A stretch of 38,778 bases of DNA from a virus: positions 1 to 38,778 of IMG/VR virus record IMGVR_UViG_3300028857_000015, one strand, 5' to 3'. Each line of letters begins with the position of its first letter. Position 1 is the stretch's first letter. The position numbers and the translations under genes were made by a program. The notes under the pieces are model-generated. The model was not told the origin of the DNA, did not search any database, and saw only the letters and a program-made list of their open reading frames with translations. Below, in pieces: positions 6,890-19,946 of this stretch.

Positions 6890-7558
6890 ATGAACGACAA
6901 AATAATCAAAGAAGAGATAATCGAAGGGTTTGTACGTGACCAGTACGGGTATTGCCACTACTTCGTAGAAAATAAAAAAGCATTTATTTATAACCTATAT
7001 ACTTATCCAGAGTATAGAAAAAAAGGTCATGCAAGAAATCATATCGAATATGTAATAAAAGAAATAATCAAAACTGGATACACGGGATCGATAGGAATAG
7101 AAGCAGATCCAAGAGAAAATAGTATATCGGTTGAACGTCTTTCGTTATTTTATATCAGCATGGGTCTTTATGTTTTAGAAACTGACAAAGAAGAACCTCT
7201 GCGTTGTCCCTCATGTCATTGCATAGTCGATGAAAAAGGGAAAGGTCATCATTCAGCGGCTGATTGTATATTCCTGAAAATTGAAGATGTTAAACCGACA
7301 GAATGGGAACCGTCCAGATCAAAACTCATGCGGAACCGACGGGATGAAATGAATGAAAAATTGTTATCAGACGAATATGGCATAGAGGATAGAAAGCGTA
7401 TCGCTGAAATTTCAAAACAATTGGAAAAAGAAATAGCTGAAATGGATGCAGAGGAAATTGCAATTTGTGAATCCTACCATGCGTACCTATGCGCGGGGTG
7501 TAACGGAAAACATCTGGCATTCCCGAATAGGGAGGATACCCATGTCAGTGCAATTTGA
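6890..7558 (+). CDS. GNAT-like acetyltransferase with zinc-binding C-terminal part
   Basis: 222 residues. Residues about 30-60 carry the GNAT acetyl-CoA motif (YNLYTYPEYRKKGHARNHI, the R/Q-x-x-G-x-A type), and YISMGLYV near residue 90 fits motif B. The middle holds CPSCHC and later CAGC pairs that probably bind zinc, separated by a helical charged segment. The gene is visibly richer in A and T than the helicase and ParB genes to its left, which suggests separate acquisition. It lies in the early operon; the acetylated target is unknown. Confidence 0.6.
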   Translation: MNDKIIKEEIIEGFVRDQYGYCHYFVENKKAFIYNLYTYPEYRKKGHARNHIEYVIKEIIKTGYTGSIGIEADPRENSISVERLSLFYISMGLYVLETDKEEPLRCPSCHCIVDEKGKGHHSAADCIFLKIEDVKPTEWEPSRSKLMRNRRDEMNEKLLSDEYGIEDRKRIAEISKQLEKEIAEMDAEEIAICESYHAYLCAGCNGKHLAFPNREDTHVSAI

Positions 7559-7982
7559 AAACTTCATCAACGACGAAGCGATACCAACGAATTGGAGGGT
7601 AATATCCTCCCGGTTTGATATGTCGAATTGGACGTTCAAACAACAGCGGCTGAAAATAATCGGTGAAATATTGGAATTGGCGGATGAACAGGATCAGTAC
7701 GCCCAGCACGGCGATTCGCTCTCATACGAAAAATTGTGCCTCGAACTCGCCGACGTCTGTATCGCTATTTGTACGCTGATGCACCTGCAGGGCCGAAAAT
7801 TCTTGATTGTGAAGGGTAAGTTTGAAAGCGGTCCCGAAGGTTGGATTCGTCAGCTGCTTTCCAGGGACTCAGCGTTTCTACTTTCAAGCGTCTTCGCATA
7901 TGCGACAACGAACTCGATCGATATCGTTGGATATATCCGAAAAAAGATCAAATACAACAGAACTCGGAAGGATTGGAAGTGA
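7542..7982 (+). CDS. MazG-like nucleotide pyrophosphohydrolase
   Basis: 146 residues from ATG 7542, which has a GGGAGG ribosome site and overlaps the preceding gene by 17 bases. The all-alpha NTP-PPase pattern is visible: GEILELADEQ (ExxxE-type), then LCLELADVCIAI (ExxD), and near the end KIKYNRTRKDW, the N-x-x-R motif of the MazG/HisE fold. Such enzymes hydrolyse NTPs or ppGpp-like nucleotides and are common in phage early regions. The C-terminal 60 residues are more variable. It ends 5 bases from the convergent repressor gene. Confidence 0.6.
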   Translation: MSVQFENFINDEAIPTNWRVISSRFDMSNWTFKQQRLKIIGEILELADEQDQYAQHGDSLSYEKLCLELADVCIAICTLMHLQGRKFLIVKGKFESGPEGWIRQLLSRDSAFLLSSVFAYATTNSIDIVGYIRKKIKYNRTRKDWK

Positions 7983-8957: not shown

Positions 8958-10010
8958 ATGGACAATACAGCATTAGCGATTGTAGAAAACGCAAAAAACA
9001 GGGGTGCATTGATTTATGTAGACATGAACAGTCTCAATCAGATGACCGAACTGTTCCGGGCGGAAGCAACAGAGATATCTTTCGACAAAAAACAGTTTCA
9101 CTCCATGAAGGGCGGAAAGTTTCAGCCGGATAAAGCCACAACCGACAAAATCGGAGAGCTTTCCGGAATAACCTTCATAAACGGTTCCAGTACGGAAAAG
9201 CTTATTCATCGAAATGATAGTATTTGCGGTGAACGTGACTCCTGGGTTGTTACCGCTCAGGGAAAAAAGCTTTGTTCCGATGGTAATTGGCAGGAATCGA
9301 ATATCGAAGCCTATGAGTTTGACCCGTGTGTAAGGGCAATGGAAGAACTTGGATATTCGGAAATAACCGCAACGAACAAAGCGGCGTTTAACCGAAAGGT
9401 TATTGAATTTACCAAAGTTGCACTTGCCCGGGCAAAGACCGGCGCGCGGCTTCGCGTAATCCGCGCTCTTGCCGGTCTTCCGAGTTCTTTTGATGCCGAT
9501 GACATGAAAAAACCAATGGTTTTCTCCCGGGTCGTCATGAATACAGCATTCGTCTTGTCAACACCGGAAGGTAGAACTATGGCAACTGCGAAAGCTCTCG
9601 GAATGGATGTGAGCTCCCTTTTGTATGGACAGAAAAAACCGCAAATCGAGGAGACACCTTCGGCTCAAGATCATTCGGCAGAAACCGGTTCCGAACCCGC
9701 CGAGGAAGACCTCAAGCCGGCCGACACCACCGGTTTTGAACAGGCATCCGGTCAGTCTCCTGCGGATCTCGCCGCGGCGGCCGGATCTGATTCAGGAGAT
9801 CGGGAGTTTGAAAACCTCACCGCCGACCTGGAAGCACTGGTCGAATCGAACAAAGCCGTTTTGGATATTGATACCAACGGAAAAAATCCCTACAAACTGG
9901 CCCAGGCTGAAATCGATGATTTCAACGGTACCATCGAAAGTCGGAAGAAAATGCTTTCAAAAATCAACACGTTCATCACAACCATGAAAGAAAGGGGGTT
10001 GGCATCGTGA
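8958..10010 (+). CDS. Putative recombination-associated protein upstream of the SbcCD fusion
   Basis: 350 residues. The N-terminal 230 residues look globular, with a conserved-looking core ARAKTGARLRVIRALAGLPS followed by DMKKPMVFSRVV. The region around 235-285 is a low-complexity acidic/Ala linker. The last 60 residues form a coiled-coil (FNGTIESRKKMLSKINTF). It sits directly upstream of an Mre11-Rad50-type nuclease with a GTGA overlap, the place where phages encode single-strand annealing or exonuclease-partner proteins. I cannot assign a RecT, Erf or Sak family from the residues, so the role is inferred from position. Confidence 0.55.
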   Translation: MDNTALAIVENAKNRGALIYVDMNSLNQMTELFRAEATEISFDKKQFHSMKGGKFQPDKATTDKIGELSGITFINGSSTEKLIHRNDSICGERDSWVVTAQGKKLCSDGNWQESNIEAYEFDPCVRAMEELGYSEITATNKAAFNRKVIEFTKVALARAKTGARLRVIRALAGLPSSFDADDMKKPMVFSRVVMNTAFVLSTPEGRTMATAKALGMDVSSLLYGQKKPQIEETPSAQDHSAETGSEPAEEDLKPADTTGFEQASGQSPADLAAAAGSDSGDREFENLTADLEALVESNKAVLDIDTNGKNPYKLAQAEIDDFNGTIESRKKMLSKINTFITTMKERGLAS

Positions 10011-13000
10011 AAATAGCCCATATTTCAGACCTGCACTGCAACCGCGAAAATGCGGAAGCAGCGCTCAAGTCTTTGACCGAGTTTCATGCGCATATCAGCT
10101 CCAAGCCGGTTGATATCGTCGCAATTTCGGGCGACATCTGGGATGCTTCGATGCTCAATACCGAAGCGTCCGGTTTCGACCGGTTCGTGGAAGCCATTCA
10201 GAGGATTGCGGACATTGCGCCGGTTGTCATGGTTTATGGAACTCCGAGTCATGATACCGACGGTTCGCTCGAGGTTTTCAAGCGTGTTCAGAGCAGACGC
10301 GGGATTACCGTACTCGAGCCAGGTACGCCGTATTTTCTTGATGTGGGCATAGTCAGAAACAAATCAACATTGGCTGGGTCTCCCGGTTCGCTCCTCATCC
10401 TCGGAATCCCTGAGCCCCGCAAGAAATACCTCCTCGCTGGCGCCACGACGGGCAAGGACGCCACCGATGAAGCCGTCCGCGCCGCTATGCACCAGCTTTG
10501 TTTCCAGCTCGCCGCCGTGCGCTCCCAGTACGCCGATCTCCCGTGCCTGGTCGTCTATCACGGTGACGTCGCGGGAACCACCCTGCAGAATGATGAGACC
10601 GTCGAGCGCGGAACGGGAATTGCGATCACCATCGATGAACTCGCCGATATCGGAGCCGATTACGTGGCATGCGGTCACATTCACAAGCCCCAGCAGATCG
10701 GAACGCTTCCGGCCTATTACGCAGGATCAGCCTATCCGAAAAACTTCGGGGAAGGACACAAAGCGGGCTTTAATGTGGCGACGGTTGGACAAGATGGGAC
10801 AGCGGTTGAACGGGTTGACTTTTCGCATCCCCAGAACTTGAAGATCGCAACGAAATACCCGTTTACTATGTTCGATGCAGAACGGTTTTACGGAATACGG
10901 TTATGGGTAGAAATATCCTGCAAAAAGGAGGAACAGGCACTCGTAGACGCTGATAAGGTGCTCGCGACCATCATGAAAGTCGGTGCTGCGCCGGGCTCTC
11001 GGGTGACAGTTTCCGTTCAGGCCGTCGAAACTGTGCGCGCGGACGAGATCACCGGCGCCGTATCCCCTGAGAAAAAGCTCGAGATTTGGGGCGAACAGTC
11101 GAAGATCACAATCACCGACTCCCTGAAAGCGAAGCTCAAGACCCTCGAGGATAAGCGGGAAACCGCCGGCGCGGTGACCTCAGGCGACTGGGCGCTCGTA
11201 TCCCTCCGGCTGCGCGGCTCGATCGGAATCAAGAAGGGCGTCAAGAAAGACGAGATATTCATCAATTTCGACACTTACGAGCCGGGCCTGATTGCGCTTT
11301 CCGGGAAGAACGGGAAGGGGAAAACGACACTGATCGAGAACTGCCATGCCTATCCGCAATTGCTGACCAGAAAGGGAACCCTCAAGGACCACTTTTTCCT
11401 GCGCGATTCAATCCGGGAAGTCATCTATCGTGATCAGAAAACCGGCGCGGAAAAGCGCTACCTGATCCAGATCGACGGCGCCACGAAGTCCGGCGGGTCA
11501 AAGTACTACATTTTCGACCGCGCGGGATCGGGGTCCGACTGGGCGCCGGCCGCGGGGATCGACGGGAATCTCGTTCCTTATACCGAGGCTGTCGAGCAGA
11601 CGTTCGGGCCGATGGAGCTTTTCCTCCGGACCGCGTTTACGACTCAGCGGGCCAATAAGGACGTTCCGGATCTCACCGAGGCGACAAAGGGTGAAAAAAA
11701 GGCCCTGTTCACGAACCTTGCCGGCATCGATTACCTACAGAAATTCGCGGACAACGCGAAAACCGAGGGCGATCGCGTCCAAGCGGAATCACATGACGCG
11801 GAAATCAAGATCGGTGTAATGGAGGCGTCGGTCGGGAAAAAGGAGGAGATTGTTAACTTGATAGGAAATCTCCGGTCAGTATGCGTTGTTAAGTCAGTCG
11901 ATCTTCAACAGATCCAGAATCAAGGCACAGCCGAAAAATCAAAAGTTGAAATCCTCCGGAAAGGAGCGGAGGCAGAGCGGGCGAGGGTAATAAAGGAGAA
12001 TAACCTTAACCAATCGATTAACGATATCGAGTTTGAGATTGGCGGGCTTAAATCCGATATTGGCAGTTTCGAAGTCATAGCAGCCAATCGTACGAAGTAC
12101 GAAGCGGATATCACCCGGTACGACGATGCAAAACGCATCGAGACAGTAGAGACCGAGAAACTCCGGGCCGTCGAGCAGCAGAACCTTACGAAAACGACTG
12201 AATTCCGCACAGCAATGGATACCTTCAACACTGAAAAGCGCCGAATCGAGAATCTCCTGAACACGGCCCGTCTCGGTGCGAACAACGCCCGGGGCGATGC
12301 CGCGAAGATTCAGCACTCGATTGAGCTCTTGAAGCACGAAGCGGCTGATTTTGATCAGAACTGCCCGACTTGCGGACAGATTCTCCCCGCGGATAAGCTC
12401 GCGGAACTGATTCAGAAGCGCGATACGGCCCGTACACGCATCGAAACCCTGCAGGTCGAGGCATTGGAGCAAAATAGCGCAATTGCCGCACAGGACGCGA
12501 GCGTGGACGCTCTCCAGGCGGAATTGGCCGGTCTCGGATTCGACGAACCGGAGGCAGAGAAACCGGAAGAGTTCGATCGGGCTATCCTCGACGGGGCGCT
12601 CCAGGTGATCCGCTCGATCGAAATCGATTCAATCCGCGCACTCCTCACAAAATCGGCTGAGTCGGCCGCCCGGATCGAAGGTTTTCGGGCCCAAATTGCG
12701 GATAAGACCAAGCTGCAGGCGGAAAAACAGGTTGAGCTCATAGAAGTTCAGGCCCTGGCGAATACCAGTGTGATCGTTGACCTTAAAACGGCCGAGGACA
12801 GCCTGACGACCCTAACCGAACAGTACCGAACTCTCACCGTAGAGATCGCGGCAGCCGATGCATCTCTCAAGGCTCAGGATAAGGCTCTCGCTGATATCGC
12901 CGCTCAGGAAGCGGAACTCGAAGCCCTCCGGAAGCAGATTCTCACCGCAAAGACTGAATTCGCTGAATGGGATCTCCTGAAACGCGCTTTCGGACCGGAC

Positions 13001-13531
13001 GGGATACAGGCGCTCGAACTCGACGCGCTGGCCCCGGGGATTGCTGATACGGCGAACCGGATCCTCTCCAGTGCCTACGGCGACCGCTTCCGCGTGGAAT
13101 TTCAGACAACGCGCATTGGCGGTACCGGTAAAAACACGAAACAGATCGAGGATTTCCTGATCTACATCATCGATTCGGAAGACGGGGAGCAGACACTTCT
13201 CGAAAATAAGTCCGGCGGCGAAGCGGTATGGGTTAAGCGGGCGATTTACGATGCCTTCGCAGTAATCCGCGCGCGGAACACGGATTTCCGTTTCCTAACT
13301 TGTTTCCAGGATGAAACCGACGGCGCGCTCGATTCTGATTCGAAGACGGCCTATGCCCGGATGCTCGAAGCAGCTCACGCGGAAGGAAAACTCCGGCACA
13401 CGATTGTCATCACGCACTCGGACGAGGTGAAGGCGATGATAGCGCAGAAGATCGAAATGGAGGCGTTCGCGGGAATCGCGGAGCCGGTGGAAGCGCAGGA
13501 AACGGAATTCGCACTGGAGGCAGCGGTATGA
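10007..13531 (+). CDS. Natural SbcD-SbcC (Mre11-Rad50) fusion nuclease-ATPase
   Basis: 1174 residues in one frame. The N-terminal metallophosphoesterase has D8/H10 (SDLH), GDIWD (42-46), a variant third motif GTPSHD (78-83) where GNHD is usual, YHGD (184-187) and CGHIH (222-226). The ATPase half starts near 395: Walker A GKNGKGKT (433-440), a long coiled-coil, the zinc hook CPTC (786-789), a second coiled-coil, signature KSGGE (1068-1072), Walker B ending DE (1102-1103) and an H-loop His at 1137. Mre11-Rad50 resects DNA ends and opens hairpins; here both subunits are covalently linked. The start is GTG overlapping the upstream stop. Confidence 0.9.
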   Translation: MKIAHISDLHCNRENAEAALKSLTEFHAHISSKPVDIVAISGDIWDASMLNTEASGFDRFVEAIQRIADIAPVVMVYGTPSHDTDGSLEVFKRVQSRRGITVLEPGTPYFLDVGIVRNKSTLAGSPGSLLILGIPEPRKKYLLAGATTGKDATDEAVRAAMHQLCFQLAAVRSQYADLPCLVVYHGDVAGTTLQNDETVERGTGIAITIDELADIGADYVACGHIHKPQQIGTLPAYYAGSAYPKNFGEGHKAGFNVATVGQDGTAVERVDFSHPQNLKIATKYPFTMFDAERFYGIRLWVEISCKKEEQALVDADKVLATIMKVGAAPGSRVTVSVQAVETVRADEITGAVSPEKKLEIWGEQSKITITDSLKAKLKTLEDKRETAGAVTSGDWALVSLRLRGSIGIKKGVKKDEIFINFDTYEPGLIALSGKNGKGKTTLIENCHAYPQLLTRKGTLKDHFFLRDSIREVIYRDQKTGAEKRYLIQIDGATKSGGSKYYIFDRAGSGSDWAPAAGIDGNLVPYTEAVEQTFGPMELFLRTAFTTQRANKDVPDLTEATKGEKKALFTNLAGIDYLQKFADNAKTEGDRVQAESHDAEIKIGVMEASVGKKEEIVNLIGNLRSVCVVKSVDLQQIQNQGTAEKSKVEILRKGAEAERARVIKENNLNQSINDIEFEIGGLKSDIGSFEVIAANRTKYEADITRYDDAKRIETVETEKLRAVEQQNLTKTTEFRTAMDTFNTEKRRIENLLNTARLGANNARGDAAKIQHSIELLKHEAADFDQNCPTCGQILPADKLAELIQKRDTARTRIETLQVEALEQNSAIAAQDASVDALQAELAGLGFDEPEAEKPEEFDRAILDGALQVIRSIEIDSIRALLTKSAESAARIEGFRAQIADKTKLQAEKQVELIEVQALANTSVIVDLKTAEDSLTTLTEQYRTLTVEIAAADASLKAQDKALADIAAQEAELEALRKQILTAKTEFAEWDLLKRAFGPDGIQALELDALAPGIADTANRILSSAYGDRFRVEFQTTRIGGTGKNTKQIEDFLIYIIDSEDGEQTLLENKSGGEAVWVKRAIYDAFAVIRARNTDFRFLTCFQDETDGALDSDSKTAYARMLEAAHAEGKLRHTIVITHSDEVKAMIAQKIEMEAFAGIAEPVEAQETEFALEAAV

Positions 13532-15563: not shown

Positions 15564-16034
15564 ATGGCAGACGTCAATCACGTTATTCTTATCGGCCGCC
15601 TCACCCGCGATGCAGAACTGAAATACACCTCCGGAGGCATGGCTGTCTGTAAATTCGCTATTGCGGTCAATAAGCGCCGGAAGCAGGGTGAAGAGTGGGT
15701 CGAAGAAGCTAACTTTTTCGATATCGTTCTCTGGGGCCGGTCCGGCGAATCCCTGAACCAATACCTCGTGAAGGGTAAGCAGATCGCCGTGGAGGGTGAA
15801 CTGAATCAAAACCGATGGGAGCAGGACGGGCAGGCCCGGAGCAAGATCGAGATTATGGCGAATAACGTCCAGCTTCTCGGTGGGCAGGCACCGGCCGGGG
15901 GCGGGCAAGGGACGGCAAGCGGCGGGCAGGGACCGGCAAGCGATGGGCGCCCCTATCAGAAACGCGCTGACACGAAAAACACAGCGCGGGGGAACGCTGA
16001 ACCGCCTGATTTCCCCGACGATATTCCATTTTAA
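15564..16034 (+). CDS. ssb: Single-stranded DNA-binding protein
   Basis: 156 residues starting right after the ParB-like stop. The OB-fold core (NHVILIGRLTRDAELKYTSG, FDIVLWGRSGESL, VEGELNQNRWEQDGQ) is canonical. A Gly/Gln/Ala repeat linker with GGGQG and GGQGP units (about 108-130) leads to the acidic tip DFPDDIPF, which recruits partner proteins. It coats ssDNA during phage replication and recombination, matching the neighbouring nuclease genes. Confidence 0.95.
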   Translation: MADVNHVILIGRLTRDAELKYTSGGMAVCKFAIAVNKRRKQGEEWVEEANFFDIVLWGRSGESLNQYLVKGKQIAVEGELNQNRWEQDGQARSKIEIMANNVQLLGGQAPAGGGQGTASGGQGPASDGRPYQKRADTKNTARGNAEPPDFPDDIPF

Positions 16035-16630: not shown

Positions 16631-16635
16631 GTATA

Positions 16636-16653
16636 TTAGGCTGAACTGCCTAA
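16636..16653. repeat. Inverted repeat at the left boundary of the cassette array
   Basis: TTAGGC (16636-16641) and GCCTAA (16648-16653) form a 6-bp inverted repeat around TGAACT, just before the first cassette core GTTGGAT (16659-16665). The arms resemble integron core halves (GTTAGGC/GCCTAAC) lacking one base each. This may mark a degenerate attachment site or the original insertion point. Confidence 0.4.
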
Positions 16654-16676
16654 TTATTGTTGGATGGACACTTTTG

Positions 16677-16696
16677 CCGTGTAACAAGTTACACGG
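16677..16696 (+). promoter_or_regulatory. Cassette 1 leader hairpin
   Basis: CCGTGTAAC (16677-16685) and GTTACACGG (16688-16696) are a perfect 9-bp inverted repeat, flanked by GGACA on both sides, upstream of the AGGAGG site of the cassette gene. The same arrangement occurs in every cassette. Confidence 0.6.
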
Positions 16697-16731
16697 ACAC
16701 GCGCCACGTCGCCAATTCAGGAGGAAACGAA

Positions 16732-16947
16732 ATGGATTTACACGGACAGATTATGAACATTCAAATTACCAGCGCCAACATCGGAAAAGCCGTGGAGGCT
16801 GGCATGGCCTACGATAATGACTGGGAAAGTCGCCTGGCGCTGGCCTACAAAATGGGTCATCGTGATGCAAGACACGCCGCCGCTGATTTGGCGACTATCC
16901 AACAACAAGTTCAACCGGACGGCGCGGACAAGCCGCTTGCCGGTTAA
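16732..16947 (+). CDS. Cassette 1 protein, hypothetical
   Basis: 71 residues from ATG 16732, behind AGGAGG; an upstream in-frame start at 16657 would cross the cassette junction and is rejected. The sequence begins MDLHGQIMNIQITSANIGKA and is helical with several His and Asp residues. The last 14 codons and the stop are encoded by the attC site itself, so the C-terminus is shaped by the recombination site. No family recognised. As usual in cassettes there is no promoter of its own; expression would come from the phage early transcript. Confidence 0.7.
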   Translation: MDLHGQIMNIQITSANIGKAVEAGMAYDNDWESRLALAYKMGHRDARHAAADLATIQQQVQPDGADKPLAG

Positions 16948-16960
16948 CTTAATGTTAGCT
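16897..16960 (+). repeat. attC site 1 (64 bp)
   Basis: Outer cores ATCCAAC (16897-16903) and GTTAGCT (16954-16960). Inner arms AAGTT-C-AACCGG (16907-16918) and CCGGTT-AACTT (16940-16950) pair perfectly except for the extra C16912, the extrahelical base that integron integrase reads on the folded bottom strand. Confidence 0.9.
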
Positions 16961-16970
16961 CGACAACCAG

Positions 16971-16994
16971 CCGCCTTCAATAAATCGAAGGCGG
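16971..16994 (+). promoter_or_regulatory. Cassette 2 leader hairpin
   Basis: CCGCCTTC (16971-16978) pairs with GAAGGCGG (16987-16994) around 8 bases. It is followed by ACAAGTTGCGGGAAG and the AAAAGGAG ribosome site, nearly identical to the leader of cassette 3. Confidence 0.6.
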
Positions 16995-17025
16995 ACAAGT
17001 TGCGGGAAGAAAAAGGAGCTTTACC

Positions 17026-17262
17026 GTGGAAATAAAAGACATTGTTTTGAAACTGACTGGCCCGGTCGATCCGGTCGGCGAATCTAATGCAGACGATTAC
17101 CGTTTTGAAAACCTCAAGACGCTTTGCAAGCTTACGGAGCACCTTGTATGCGTAATCGACGAGGTTAGCTATCGCAATAAAGACCGTGCCGAATACTCAA
17201 TGAGCCGCGCCGGAAGATACGCTTTCGACTTCATTGACAAGAAGTTGAATATCAAAGAGTAG
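17026..17262 (+). CDS. Cassette 2 protein, hypothetical
   Basis: 78 residues from GTG 17026 with AAAAGGAG seven bases upstream. It begins MEIKDIVLKLTGPVDPVGES and continues as helices (FENLKTLCKLTEHLVCVI, then AEYSMSRAGRYAFDFIDK). The pattern resembles small uncharacterised proteins found in other phages and mobile elements, but I give no function. The TAG stop at 17260-17262 overlaps the attC core, so the cassette has almost no spare sequence. Confidence 0.75.
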   Translation: MEIKDIVLKLTGPVDPVGESNADDYRFENLKTLCKLTEHLVCVIDEVSYRNKDRAEYSMSRAGRYAFDFIDKKLNIKE

Positions 17263-17318
17263 CTAACAACATGTTCCACCTGACAATCAGTAGATTGCAG
17301 GTGAACAAAATGTTAGAA
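17261..17318 (+). repeat. attC site 2 (58 bp)
   Basis: Outer cores AGCTAAC (17261-17267) and GTTAGAA (17312-17318). Arms TGTTC-C-ACCTG (17272-17282) and CAGGT-GAACA (17298-17307) pair with the single extrahelical C17277. The apex contains an additional CAATC/GATTG stem. Confidence 0.9.
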
Positions 17319-17328
17319 CGACAAACAA

Positions 17329-17357
17329 CCGTGTACCGGCCTTCGGCCACTACACGG
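17329..17357 (+). promoter_or_regulatory. Cassette 3 leader hairpin
   Basis: CCGTGTA (17329-17335) pairs with TACACGG (17351-17357), with an inner GGCC-TTC-GGCC stem. It is followed by ATAATTTGCGGGAAG and AAAAGGAG. Confidence 0.6.
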
Positions 17358-17386
17358 ATAATTTGCGGGAAGAAAAGGAGAAGAAC

Positions 17387-17767
17387 ATGAAGAAAGCATT
17401 TATCGCTATTCTTGTGGCTGTTGTGATTGCAGTATCAATCACCGGATGTACCGAGGCAGAAGTAGCCTCGAACAATCTTTCAAAAGAGGCAGATCAGTTC
17501 AACGTATACCGACGGGTCGTGTTCTACAACGGAATTACCGACCAATACATTCTGGAAATTGACGGATATTGTTCCGTCGAGTTTCTTACCGACAAATTTG
17601 TCGTAACCGTAAAGACGGATGACGGGAAATACATGAAACATTATCTTGGCCGCGCCGACAATGTTTTCCCGTTTGTGGAACAGCTTGACTCAAGAGGCGT
17701 ATCTACCAGACAGTACAAGGTTATTTTCAGGCCGTCCGTAATTATCCCCGACATTGACTTAAAGTAA
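17387..17767 (+). CDS. Cassette 3 beta-sandwich-type lipoprotein
   Basis: 126 residues from ATG 17387 behind AAAAGGAG. A signal peptide with lipobox ends ITGC (Cys21), so the mature protein is lipid-anchored in the envelope. The following sequence (SKEADQFNVYRRVVFYNG, DQYILEIDGYCSVEF, KYMKHYLGRADNVFPF, QYKVIFRPSVIIPDIDLK) matches, from memory, a family of small beta-sandwich lipoproteins found in phages and prophages of Proteobacteria and other bacteria. Lipoproteins of this kind are plausible superinfection-exclusion factors, but that role is inference. The stop lies 4 bases before the attC 3 core. Confidence 0.8.
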   Translation: MKKAFIAILVAVVIAVSITGCTEAEVASNNLSKEADQFNVYRRVVFYNGITDQYILEIDGYCSVEFLTDKFVVTVKTDDGKYMKHYLGRADNVFPFVEQLDSRGVSTRQYKVIFRPSVIIPDIDLK

Positions 17768-17771
17768 GAGT

Positions 17772-17905
17772 TTCTAACAACAAGTTCAACCTGACAAGCC
17801 CAAATGTACTCACGTTGGTAAATACGAGTGTTGCGGGTCATGGAACAGTTGGGACGATACCTGTAAGTTTCCGGGAGGGGCTTGCAGGTTAACTTAATGT
17901 TAGGC
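17772..17905 (+). repeat. attC site 3, long form (134 bp)
   Basis: Outer cores TTCTAAC (17772-17778) and GTTAGGC (17899-17905). Arms AAGTT-C-AACCTG (17782-17793) and CAGGTT-AACTT (17885-17895) pair with extrahelical C17787, and CAAGCCC/GGGCTTG extends the stem. The apex holds about 80 bases of extra sequence, making it more than twice the length of the other three. Confidence 0.85.
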
Positions 17906-17914
17906 TGACAACTA

Positions 17915-17941
17915 CGGTATAACCGCTACACGCTTATACCG
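17915..17941 (+). promoter_or_regulatory. Cassette 4 leader hairpin
   Basis: CGGTATAA (17915-17922) pairs perfectly with TTATACCG (17934-17941). It is followed by ACACGTTGC and AAAAGGAG. Confidence 0.6.
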
Positions 17942-17963
17942 ACACGTTGCAAAAGGAGTTTAT

Positions 17964-18146
17964 ATGGCATTGTTTGACATGGATTTTGAATACCAGTGTC
18001 CGCATTGCGGATACCATTTTCTCGATGAACACGATCTTGAAAAAGAAACGTGCGAACATACGGTTGTCTGCGATGAGTGTGGTAAGAAATATACCATAAA
18101 ATCAAAGGCAGTAATAAACATAGAAGTTGATGTAACGAAAGCCTAA
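17964..18146 (+). CDS. Cassette 4 zinc-ribbon protein
   Basis: 60 residues with AAAAGGAG upstream. CPHC (residues 12-15) and CDEC (36-39) give a four-cysteine zinc ribbon, with another Cys and several His between. Such mini zinc-ribbons bind nucleic acid or partner proteins, including transcription factors. The TAA stop (18144-18146) lies within the GCCTAAC core of attC 4, so the gene fills the cassette completely. Confidence 0.8.
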   Translation: MALFDMDFEYQCPHCGYHFLDEHDLEKETCEHTVVCDECGKKYTIKSKAVINIEVDVTKA

Positions 18147-18198
18147 CAACTGCTTCAACTCGACTCGCGGTAGCTCGCGAGTTAAGCAAATGTTAGGA
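18141..18198 (+). repeat. attC site 4 (58 bp)
   Basis: Outer cores GCCTAAC (18141-18147) and GTTAGGA (18192-18198). Arms TGCTT-C-AACTCG (18151-18162) and CGAGTT-AAGCA (18178-18188) pair with extrahelical C18156. The apex is GC-rich and offers an alternative CTCGCG/CGCGAG stem. Confidence 0.9.
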
Positions 18199-18208
18199 CG
18201 ACCGACAG

Positions 18209-18235
18209 CCGCATATCGGCTACGCCAATACGCGG
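18209..18235 (+). promoter_or_regulatory. Cassette 5 leader hairpin
   Basis: CCGCATAT (18209-18216) pairs with ATACGCGG (18228-18235) with one mismatch. An AGCCG/CGGCT stem competes. It is followed by ACAATTCGCGAAAGGAT, the divergent form of the leader tail seen in cassettes 2-4. Confidence 0.5.
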
Positions 18236-18259
18236 ACAATTCGCGAAAGGATAAAAAGG

Positions 18260-18508
18260 ATGGAAATACGATGTTTATTCGCGCAAAGAAAATGTAGTTA
18301 CGAGGGGCAGTATGCGCCGGAATTACTCGCCGCCATAGATGAATACGGCGACGATGAAAACCCTGATTATCTGAATGAATCGCAGGAGAAAGCCGACAGC
18401 GATAACGATTTGCTTTTCTCAAAGCGGATTACTATATCAGTTCCCGAAGAAAAATTTGACGAAGTTTTCTTTGGTGAAAATCAGTTGGAAGGATCAATCA
18501 AACTATAG
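18260..18508 (+). CDS. Cassette 5 acidic protein, hypothetical
   Basis: 82 residues beginning MEIRCLFAQRKCSYEGQY. The middle is strongly acidic (DEYGDDENPDYLNESQEKAD) and the end has a beta-rich segment (KRITISVPEEKFDEVFF). A GAAAGGAT ribosome site precedes it. It follows a normal attC and cassette leader, but no matching 3' core (TCCTAAC) is found before the next gene, so this cassette has lost its own attC or the gene has become fixed in the phage operon. No family recognised. Confidence 0.6.
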   Translation: MEIRCLFAQRKCSYEGQYAPELLAAIDEYGDDENPDYLNESQEKADSDNDLLFSKRITISVPEEKFDEVFFGENQLEGSIKL

Positions 18509-18800: not shown

Positions 18801-19946
18801 ATGGGCGAGGTTCAACGATATATATCTTCATCATTTTGGTCAGACGATTGGGTAGATTCTCTTTCTATCCAGGGAAAATTGCTCTATATGTACCTGCTTA
18901 CTAACGAATGTACAAATATTGCCGGCGTCTACAAAATCACCATGAAACGCATGAAAGATGATACAGGAATTCCGAGAGATGAAATCAAAACACTCTTGGA
19001 AGGATTTGAGGAAAAACGAAAAGTATTCTACTTTCAAGAATATATGATCATTCCAAAATGGCCAAAACACCAACGAATCGGTGAGCGAAGTACCCTTTGC
19101 ATGGGTATGTATGCAGCCCTTCGGGGCCTTCCGATCGAGATCAGGGCATTCCTTTGTTCTGATCCGAACCACTATATCTATGATTTACGCAAGGTTTTCG
19201 ACAATTTCGATCAATATGTAAAGATGATAGACGATGCCAAAAAAGGGATAGACGACCCCGAAAATGGCATAGACGACCACCTAAAACAGCCTTTAGGTGC
19301 TGAAAACACCGAAAATACCGATCGTCTATCTCATAAGTTAGATTTAGATCTTGATTCTGATATTGATCTTGATTCTGATTTAGAAATAAGAAGTAGTGGT
19401 AGTAATCTTAATGTAGTTTCCCCTGAGGAAAAACAACCACCACTTTCCTTACTCAGAGAATCAGTCAAAGAATCCGGATACATCATCGACGACAAGATCG
19501 CCGAAAAGTTCCAGAACTCGAAAATCCCGGAAGAGTGGACTCAGGGTCAGAAATCATTCTTCGCATATGCGAAGATCTGCATTGACGAGAAATATCCAGA
19601 AAAACCAGTATCCGAGAAACGGACACTTTTCATAACTGCCGTTCAGACCTGGGAGAACCTTCGAGAAGAATATCCAGCCTGGAAGAATTCTCAAGAAAAA
19701 ATCGAACAGACGGCCGCGAAGAAACAGGCTATTAACAACAAACCGACGCACTGCGAAAAATGCCAGGTAGAACTGAGTTTCAAAACGTCACTTCCGAGAT
19801 GCCCATCATGCAAGGGCTTTTATGAGTTTGACTCGAAATCCGGAAAGTATGTATTTTCAGAGACTTTCAAACCGACTACCCAGGGAGTCATGAACGAAAT
19901 CAGGCACAAAGAGACATTTCAGTCCGGAGTTCCAGATTTTGTGTGA
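18801..19946 (+). CDS. Replication initiator / replisome-organiser-like protein
   Basis: 381 residues. The N-terminal part (YISSSFWSDDWVDSLSIQGK, LLYMYLLTNECTNIAGVYKI) matches the winged-helix N-terminal domain of phage replisome organisers, where a replication-initiation protein recognises its origin. The centre (about 140-205) is low-complexity with a 7-residue IDD repeat and an Asp/Leu run; its DNA contains the candidate origin. The C-terminal third has CEKC...CPSC, a zinc ribbon, probably for helicase-loader or DNA contact. The layout parallels lambda O, with the origin inside the initiator gene. Confidence 0.75.
   Translation: MGEVQRYISSSFWSDDWVDSLSIQGKLLYMYLLTNECTNIAGVYKITMKRMKDDTGIPRDEIKTLLEGFEEKRKVFYFQEYMIIPKWPKHQRIGERSTLCMGMYAALRGLPIEIRAFLCSDPNHYIYDLRKVFDNFDQYVKMIDDAKKGIDDPENGIDDHLKQPLGAENTENTDRLSHKLDLDLDSDIDLDSDLEIRSSGSNLNVVSPEEKQPPLSLLRESVKESGYIIDDKIAEKFQNSKIPEEWTQGQKSFFAYAKICIDEKYPEKPVSEKRTLFITAVQTWENLREEYPAWKNSQEKIEQTAAKKQAINNKPTHCEKCQVELSFKTSLPRCPSCKGFYEFDSKSGKYVFSETFKPTTQGVMNEIRHKETFQSGVPDFV
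19226..19379 (+). other. Candidate replication origin (iterons plus AT-rich repeats)
   Basis: GATAGACGA occurs at 19226-19234 and 19247-19255 and as CATAGACGA at 19268-19276, an exact 21-bp period. The surrounding unit also repeats (Y-S-C-C followed by an A-run and GG). The perfect inverse TCGTCTATC lies at 19322-19330. An 8-bp hairpin CACCTAAA/TTTAGGTG is at 19278-19299. An AT-rich tract follows, with the 15-mer GATCTTGATTCTGAT at 19347-19361 and 19365-19379. Confidence 0.65.

Follow-up and report, generated by a model that had tools for sequence, protein, structure and literature searches.

The 38,778-base virus record analyzed here (hereafter the window, meaning this whole stretch) most probably carries a phage integron platform that lacks an integrase, on which a host IntI would act in trans and through which spirochaete phages would exchange single genes. 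Judged by its sequence, the platform opens with an attI-like docking site, behind which lie four complete gene cassettes and one truncated cassette. Since the docking site is present and a recombinase is absent, the virus probably borrows the integron enzyme of its host to swap accessory genes. The evidence for this platform is comparative throughout, and most of the compared records are metagenomic contigs.

The window encodes terminase, portal-like, tape measure, amidase, SSB, and ParB proteins. Its cassette array lies within a co-directional run of phage genes, inserted between an SSB gene (15564–16034, plus strand; PF00436, E = 3e-32) and a replication initiator gene (18801–19946, plus strand; phrog_6251, E = 1.5e-14), and the array has the same two neighbors in the closest relatives found, L093 and L094, both from Spirochaetales MAGs. 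L093 is a prophage-like region within a long chromosomal contig of 843 kb (compared to the window, SSB 79%, TerL 74%, portal 57%), and L094 is a 24-kb contig from a second MAG (SSB 62%, TerL 76%, portal 55%) that is possibly misbinned. As these two are nearest to the window, its host is likely a spirochaete. An SSB gene was often found close to cassette arrays (L001, L009, L010, L011, L012, L088, and the window), a proximity which may matter because attC sites recombine as folded single strands. Elsewhere in the window, a single protein (10007–13531) combines a metallophosphoesterase with an SMC-like part, resembling an SbcD-SbcC fusion, and is encoded near a row of DNA hairpins.

All five cassettes are on the plus strand. 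Cassette 1 (16659–16903) runs from core GTTGGAT to core ATCCAAC, with an ORF (16732–16947, 71 aa) to which no function was assigned, and cassette 2 (16954–17267) encodes a 78-aa protein (17026–17262) with a weak match to phrog_26501 (E = 1e-5). Cassette 3 (17312–17778) carries a phage lipoprotein gene (17387–17767; PF25682, E = 9e-48; phrog_478, E = 4e-46), and cassette 4 (17899–18147) encodes a 60-aa zinc-ribbon protein (17964–18146). The fifth gene (18260–18508, 82 aa), which a first-pass annotation of this DNA had included in the array, qualifies as a cassette (18192–18508) through its core GTTAGGA and its leader, while its own attC has been lost and none follows it. That annotation had also claimed that the 5′ core of each complete cassette (GTTGGAT, GTTAGCT, GTTAGAA, and GTTAGGC) is the exact reverse complement of the same cassette’s 3′ core, and this holds for all four. 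Across 22 array loci, including the window, the two cores match in 40 of the 46 complete cassettes, a mark of units that once existed as circles.

Most cassettes, including those of the window, encode proteins without known function. Identified cargo elsewhere comprises Mom, N6/N4 and D12 methyltransferases, phage Dam, RtcB (in two phages), HNH and DUF551 proteins, and, by a weak match only, a Lar protein; in the array region of L015 (2757–4373), genes for a Mom-family protein and an N6/N4 DNA methylase stand side by side. For cassette 3, the phrog_478 label “recombination directionality factor” conflicts with a lipoprotein-like signal and with PF25682 at 17387–17767, and we set that identity aside.

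To score the attC sites, we built a covariance model (R1) that contains no window sequence: IMG/VR was searched with a pattern from the window sites, and 18 matching sites on other contigs were aligned, with arm pairing far above slid controls. Because the pattern was drawn from the window, this training set favors the attC type found there. Model R1 recovered all four sites that had been claimed, at 52–74 bits on the plus strand: attC1 (16897–16960, 52.4 bits), attC2 (17261–17318, 66.9 bits), the 134-nt attC3 (17772–17905, 52.1 bits across the whole site), and attC4 (18141–18198, 73.9 bits). The minus strand of the window gave only weak echoes (best, 21.7 bits). With filters off, attC3 initially scored 18.2 bits, as a wrong 3′ end had been matched, and reached 52.1 bits over its entire length. 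A home-made arm-pairing scanner was dropped in favor of the covariance model because its core expression was too strict, missing sites while returning chance matches. The window sites have the paired R and L boxes and the extrahelical bases of attC sites; the four paired-core sites thus stand, while the description of one extrahelical C in each does not, the top strand having a C and a later A. Relatives of the ParB (L027–L052) and of the replication initiator (L003–L006) had no attC detectable by R1, nor did one phage examined (L002) among the others that encode the cassette 3 lipoprotein family. In several arrays, the last attC is cut near the hairpin apex with the 5′ half alone left (L093, ~11300; L094, ~6600, minus strand; L082, 11018; L088, 6699), which could result from hairpin cleavage or deletion, and L018 contains a tandem attC pair without a gene in between (2472–2601).

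Directly before cassette 1, the window contains an exact match to the phage attI consensus (16635–16665, plus strand), made up of ATTAGGC (16635–16641), an inverted box GCCTAAT (16648–16654), 4 nt, and the core G/TTGGAT (16659–16665). At up to two mismatches, this was the one match in the window, against 0.02 expected by chance. The same register (box, 6 nt, inverted box, 4 nt, core) precedes the first cassette in 13 arrays including the window, with a constant 24 nt from box to core across phage arrays. Searching for the attI motif alone returned 25 stretches: besides arrays already known, these included six new arrays (L074, L080, L082, L087, L088, and L091), each with a leader directly behind the core, and the remainder were mostly chance-like or belonged to an unrelated conserved gene. 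From its sequence and position, we take this attI-like element to be a putative docking site, i.e., the primary recombination site of the array. Two phage contigs carry two separate cassette arrays each (L010 with L013, and L012 with L026), and the L010 and L013 arrays each have their own attI.

A tyrosine recombinase (PF00589) was found neither in the window, as had been claimed for intI, nor in 18 attC-bearing virus records, a set separate from the six contigs found later through attI. By the CALIN definition (at least two attC and no intI), the window is therefore a CALIN with four attC; of the further elements of a complete integron, it has an attI-like sequence and no intI beside the array. 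The label “CALIN-like” used in the first-pass annotation was accordingly apt for the attC sites and the missing integrase, and understated the locus, since its description left out both the attI-like site and the leader hairpins shared by the cassettes.

A full IntI scoring above the TIGR02249 cut-off is encoded in both genomes that carry L093 and L094, the syntenic phages. Among 247 Spirochaetota genomes, 27 have an IntI above the cut-off. Downstream of spirochaete intI, we identified attI at 11 loci, with the consensus ATTATGAGGAAGGGTCGAAGGGAT/GTT, and the phage attI-like site resembles, in register, these chromosomal sites. Under the phage attI matrix without core, the 11 sites rank 2–83 of about 7,000–7,800 positions; five of them had been found through the phage matrix and are therefore not independent, and the six found without it rank 3, 8, 16, 63, 82, and 83. 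These ranks suggest that phage attI is probably homologous to spirochaete attI, though diverged. Some of the spirochaete sites score low under the phage matrix, and for many spirochaete intI loci the seed motif revealed no attachment site. Nor did the phage matrix pick out the attI in the host that carries the best syntenic prophage. Searching 393 Spirochaetota genomes with the phage attI pattern gave one, chance-like, match: the chromosomal sites are diverged and were detected only by combining the matrix with an intI anchor.

Every cassette in the window opens with a structured leader, i.e., N-G-A-Y and a hairpin directly behind the core, and we found five such bulged-A hairpins on the plus strand (16666–16705, with an imperfect outer stem; 16961–17004; 17319–17367; 17906–17951; and 18199–18245). 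Of 43 phage leaders, 42 have at their third base an A bulged out of the outer stem. Pairing was assessed by permutation rather than with a covariance model because MAFFT alignments of the leaders misplace the outer stem: across 16 leader types, the leader’s own 5′ and 3′ strands pair at 57.0, compared to 28.0 ± 5.1 when shuffled (best of 5,000 shuffles, 49.5). Rfam gave no match above chance for the leader region. In bacterial arrays, the hairpin is shorter, and the bulged A is kept in 19 of 20 hand-picked cassettes.

Leaders recur independently of the genes that they precede. Among 62 leader-bearing cassettes, 45 pairs of leaders across contigs are at least 85% alike, and only 3 of these pairs have homologous genes. 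The 62-nt leader of cassette 2 has a nearly identical counterpart before an unrelated gene in L012, and the leader of cassette 5 has such counterparts in six other cassettes. An attC interior in common at 90% was seen in none of 32 leader-similar pairs and in 17 other pairs. Leaders, genes, and attC interiors being thus unlinked, we conclude that leader, gene, and attC hairpin reassort. Simple cassette exchange at the core leaves this reassortment unexplained, and candidate routes are R″ box exchange or short-homology recombination. We infer the function of the leader: most likely, it stops the neighboring attC hairpin from obstructing the ribosome-binding site within their common operon transcript, the main alternative being a role in integrase recognition.

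Whole cassettes differ between related phages and are shared between dissimilar ones. At the site between SSB and replication initiator, L093, L094, and the window have the surrounding gene order in common and no cassette in common, with two, three, and five cassettes, respectively. Two phages without other DNA similarity in the stretches compared (L009 and L020) share one cassette at 97% identity over 383 bp; the identity starts at the core, upstream of which lies an attC in L009 and an attI in L020. Cassette 4 of the window recurs as the first cassette of L018 (80% protein identity; 78.7% DNA identity over 356 bp), with a leader of the same family. The cassette trading proposed in the first-pass annotation is thus supported by turnover and by transfer, with cassettes varying at one place and shared as whole units. 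Neither of the two outcomes that the annotation had named as refuting it was obtained: R1 scores all four sites, and related phages differ in their cassettes at the locus. Portal proteins of the array-bearing phages belong to different PHROG families (phrog_12, 533, 146, and 145), hence the arrays cross lineages.

In the platform that we propose, the IntI of a spirochaete host would insert circular cassettes at the phage attI, and would excise and reorder phage cassettes, while the phage infects the cell or persists as a lysogen. Phages that encounter each other in these hosts would then exchange single genes, some of which may counter host defence. We infer both the action of IntI in trans on the phage array and a benefit to the phage from the sequence comparisons above.

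Cassettes could instead be moved by homologous recombination of the phage between repeated leaders and attC arms, with no integrase involved. The window phage does encode an SSB and a metallophosphoesterase/SMC-type protein, and both 62-nt leaders (at ≥85%) and attC interiors recur next to unrelated genes. We nevertheless consider this unlikely, because the L009/L020 identity begins at the core, where the upstream attC and attI share little sequence, and because attI is conserved without any need for homology to attC. Quite improbable, in our assessment, is a relic, i.e., a fragment of a chromosomal host integron that a single illegitimate recombination event brought into the phage, where it is inert today. 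Off-target or illegitimate recombination was proposed by Qi et al. (PMC9892861), none of the virus records checked (the window and 18 others) encodes an integrase, and the last attC is truncated in L082, L088, L093, and L094. A single inert capture, however, fits poorly with arrays of the same kind in phages of at least four portal families, most of them with attI, with related phages differing in cassettes at one locus, with the 97% identical cassette of two dissimilar phages, or with core matches preserved in 40 of 46 cassettes.

The hairpins might also be read as intergenic terminators or translation signals only, their likeness to attC being due to chance: leaders do resemble 5′ UTR structures, and in Tetrasphaera phage TJE1 the site that we interpret as attI carries the annotation of a putative terminator. 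Scores of 52–74 bits under an independent attC model, the exact core match in each window cassette, and dissimilar phages sharing a cassette with identity from the core onward make this reading scarcely credible, cassette-level transfers already contradicting it.

More tentatively, and as a reading that may well prove wrong, phages could keep their own pool of cassettes, each built from three independently exchanged modules (bulged-A leader, gene, and attC hairpin); the cassettes would dock at a phage-borne copy of the host’s attI and be moved by the host integrase. If so, spirochaete-type integrons would have the leader as a third structural component, recognized by the integrase or working as an RNA insulator, and the exchange of modules would reveal how new cassettes originate. 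Since leaders and attC hairpins are reused around different genes, cassette formation becomes testable. These observations bear on two open questions, the origin of integron cassettes and their carriers between cells: unrelated phage lineages share cassettes, leaders, and docking site, with cargo that includes DNA-modification, restriction-alleviation-like, and RtcB genes. If the platform is confirmed, phages would be both parasites and vehicles of the integron system, turning it against their hosts.

Phage CALINs, IntI1 activity on their attC, and an attI at a prophage CALIN are already known (Qi et al. 2023, PMC9892861). New here is the leader with a bulged-A hairpin at the start of every cassette. 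In the open-licence papers searched, we did not find a shared phage attI, its likeness to spirochaete attI, whole-cassette transfer between dissimilar phages, or a modular bulged-A leader, nor did we find shared attI, leaders, inter-phage cassette exchange, or a spirochaete link in the text of Qi et al. (PMC9892861). The CALIN of Shewanella prophage M16-3 (PMC9892861) is likewise a cassette cluster located in a phage, with attI, but this inactive prophage carries a complete, intI-containing integron as well. Chromosomal integrons of Treponema and other Spirochaetota (PMC3607928) have in common with the window the attI register, the bulged-A leader, and similar attC ends; they differ in having intI beside attI and short single hairpins as leaders, and in the bacterial arrays L057 and L059, included in this comparison, attC are mostly 100–136 nt long. 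Among published phage CALINs is that of the virulent phage TJE1, an attC cluster without intI, as in the window, and when Qi et al. (PMC9892861) assayed IntI1, it recombined attC sites of phages including TJE1. The interior of one TJE1 attC is 98% identical to that of attC4 in the window, and TJE1 also has a leader and, at the attI place, a palindrome, as in window-type arrays. Qi et al. (PMC9892861) describe this palindrome as a terminator bearing inverted core motifs. It immediately precedes cassette 1, at the end of the record, and is one base shorter than the attI-like register; annotated as putative terminator P1 (49197–49217; L137, 498–518), it sits exactly at the attI position of the other phage arrays. 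As TJE1 is an actinobacterial phage of activated sludge, the hosts of such arrays are not spirochaetes only.
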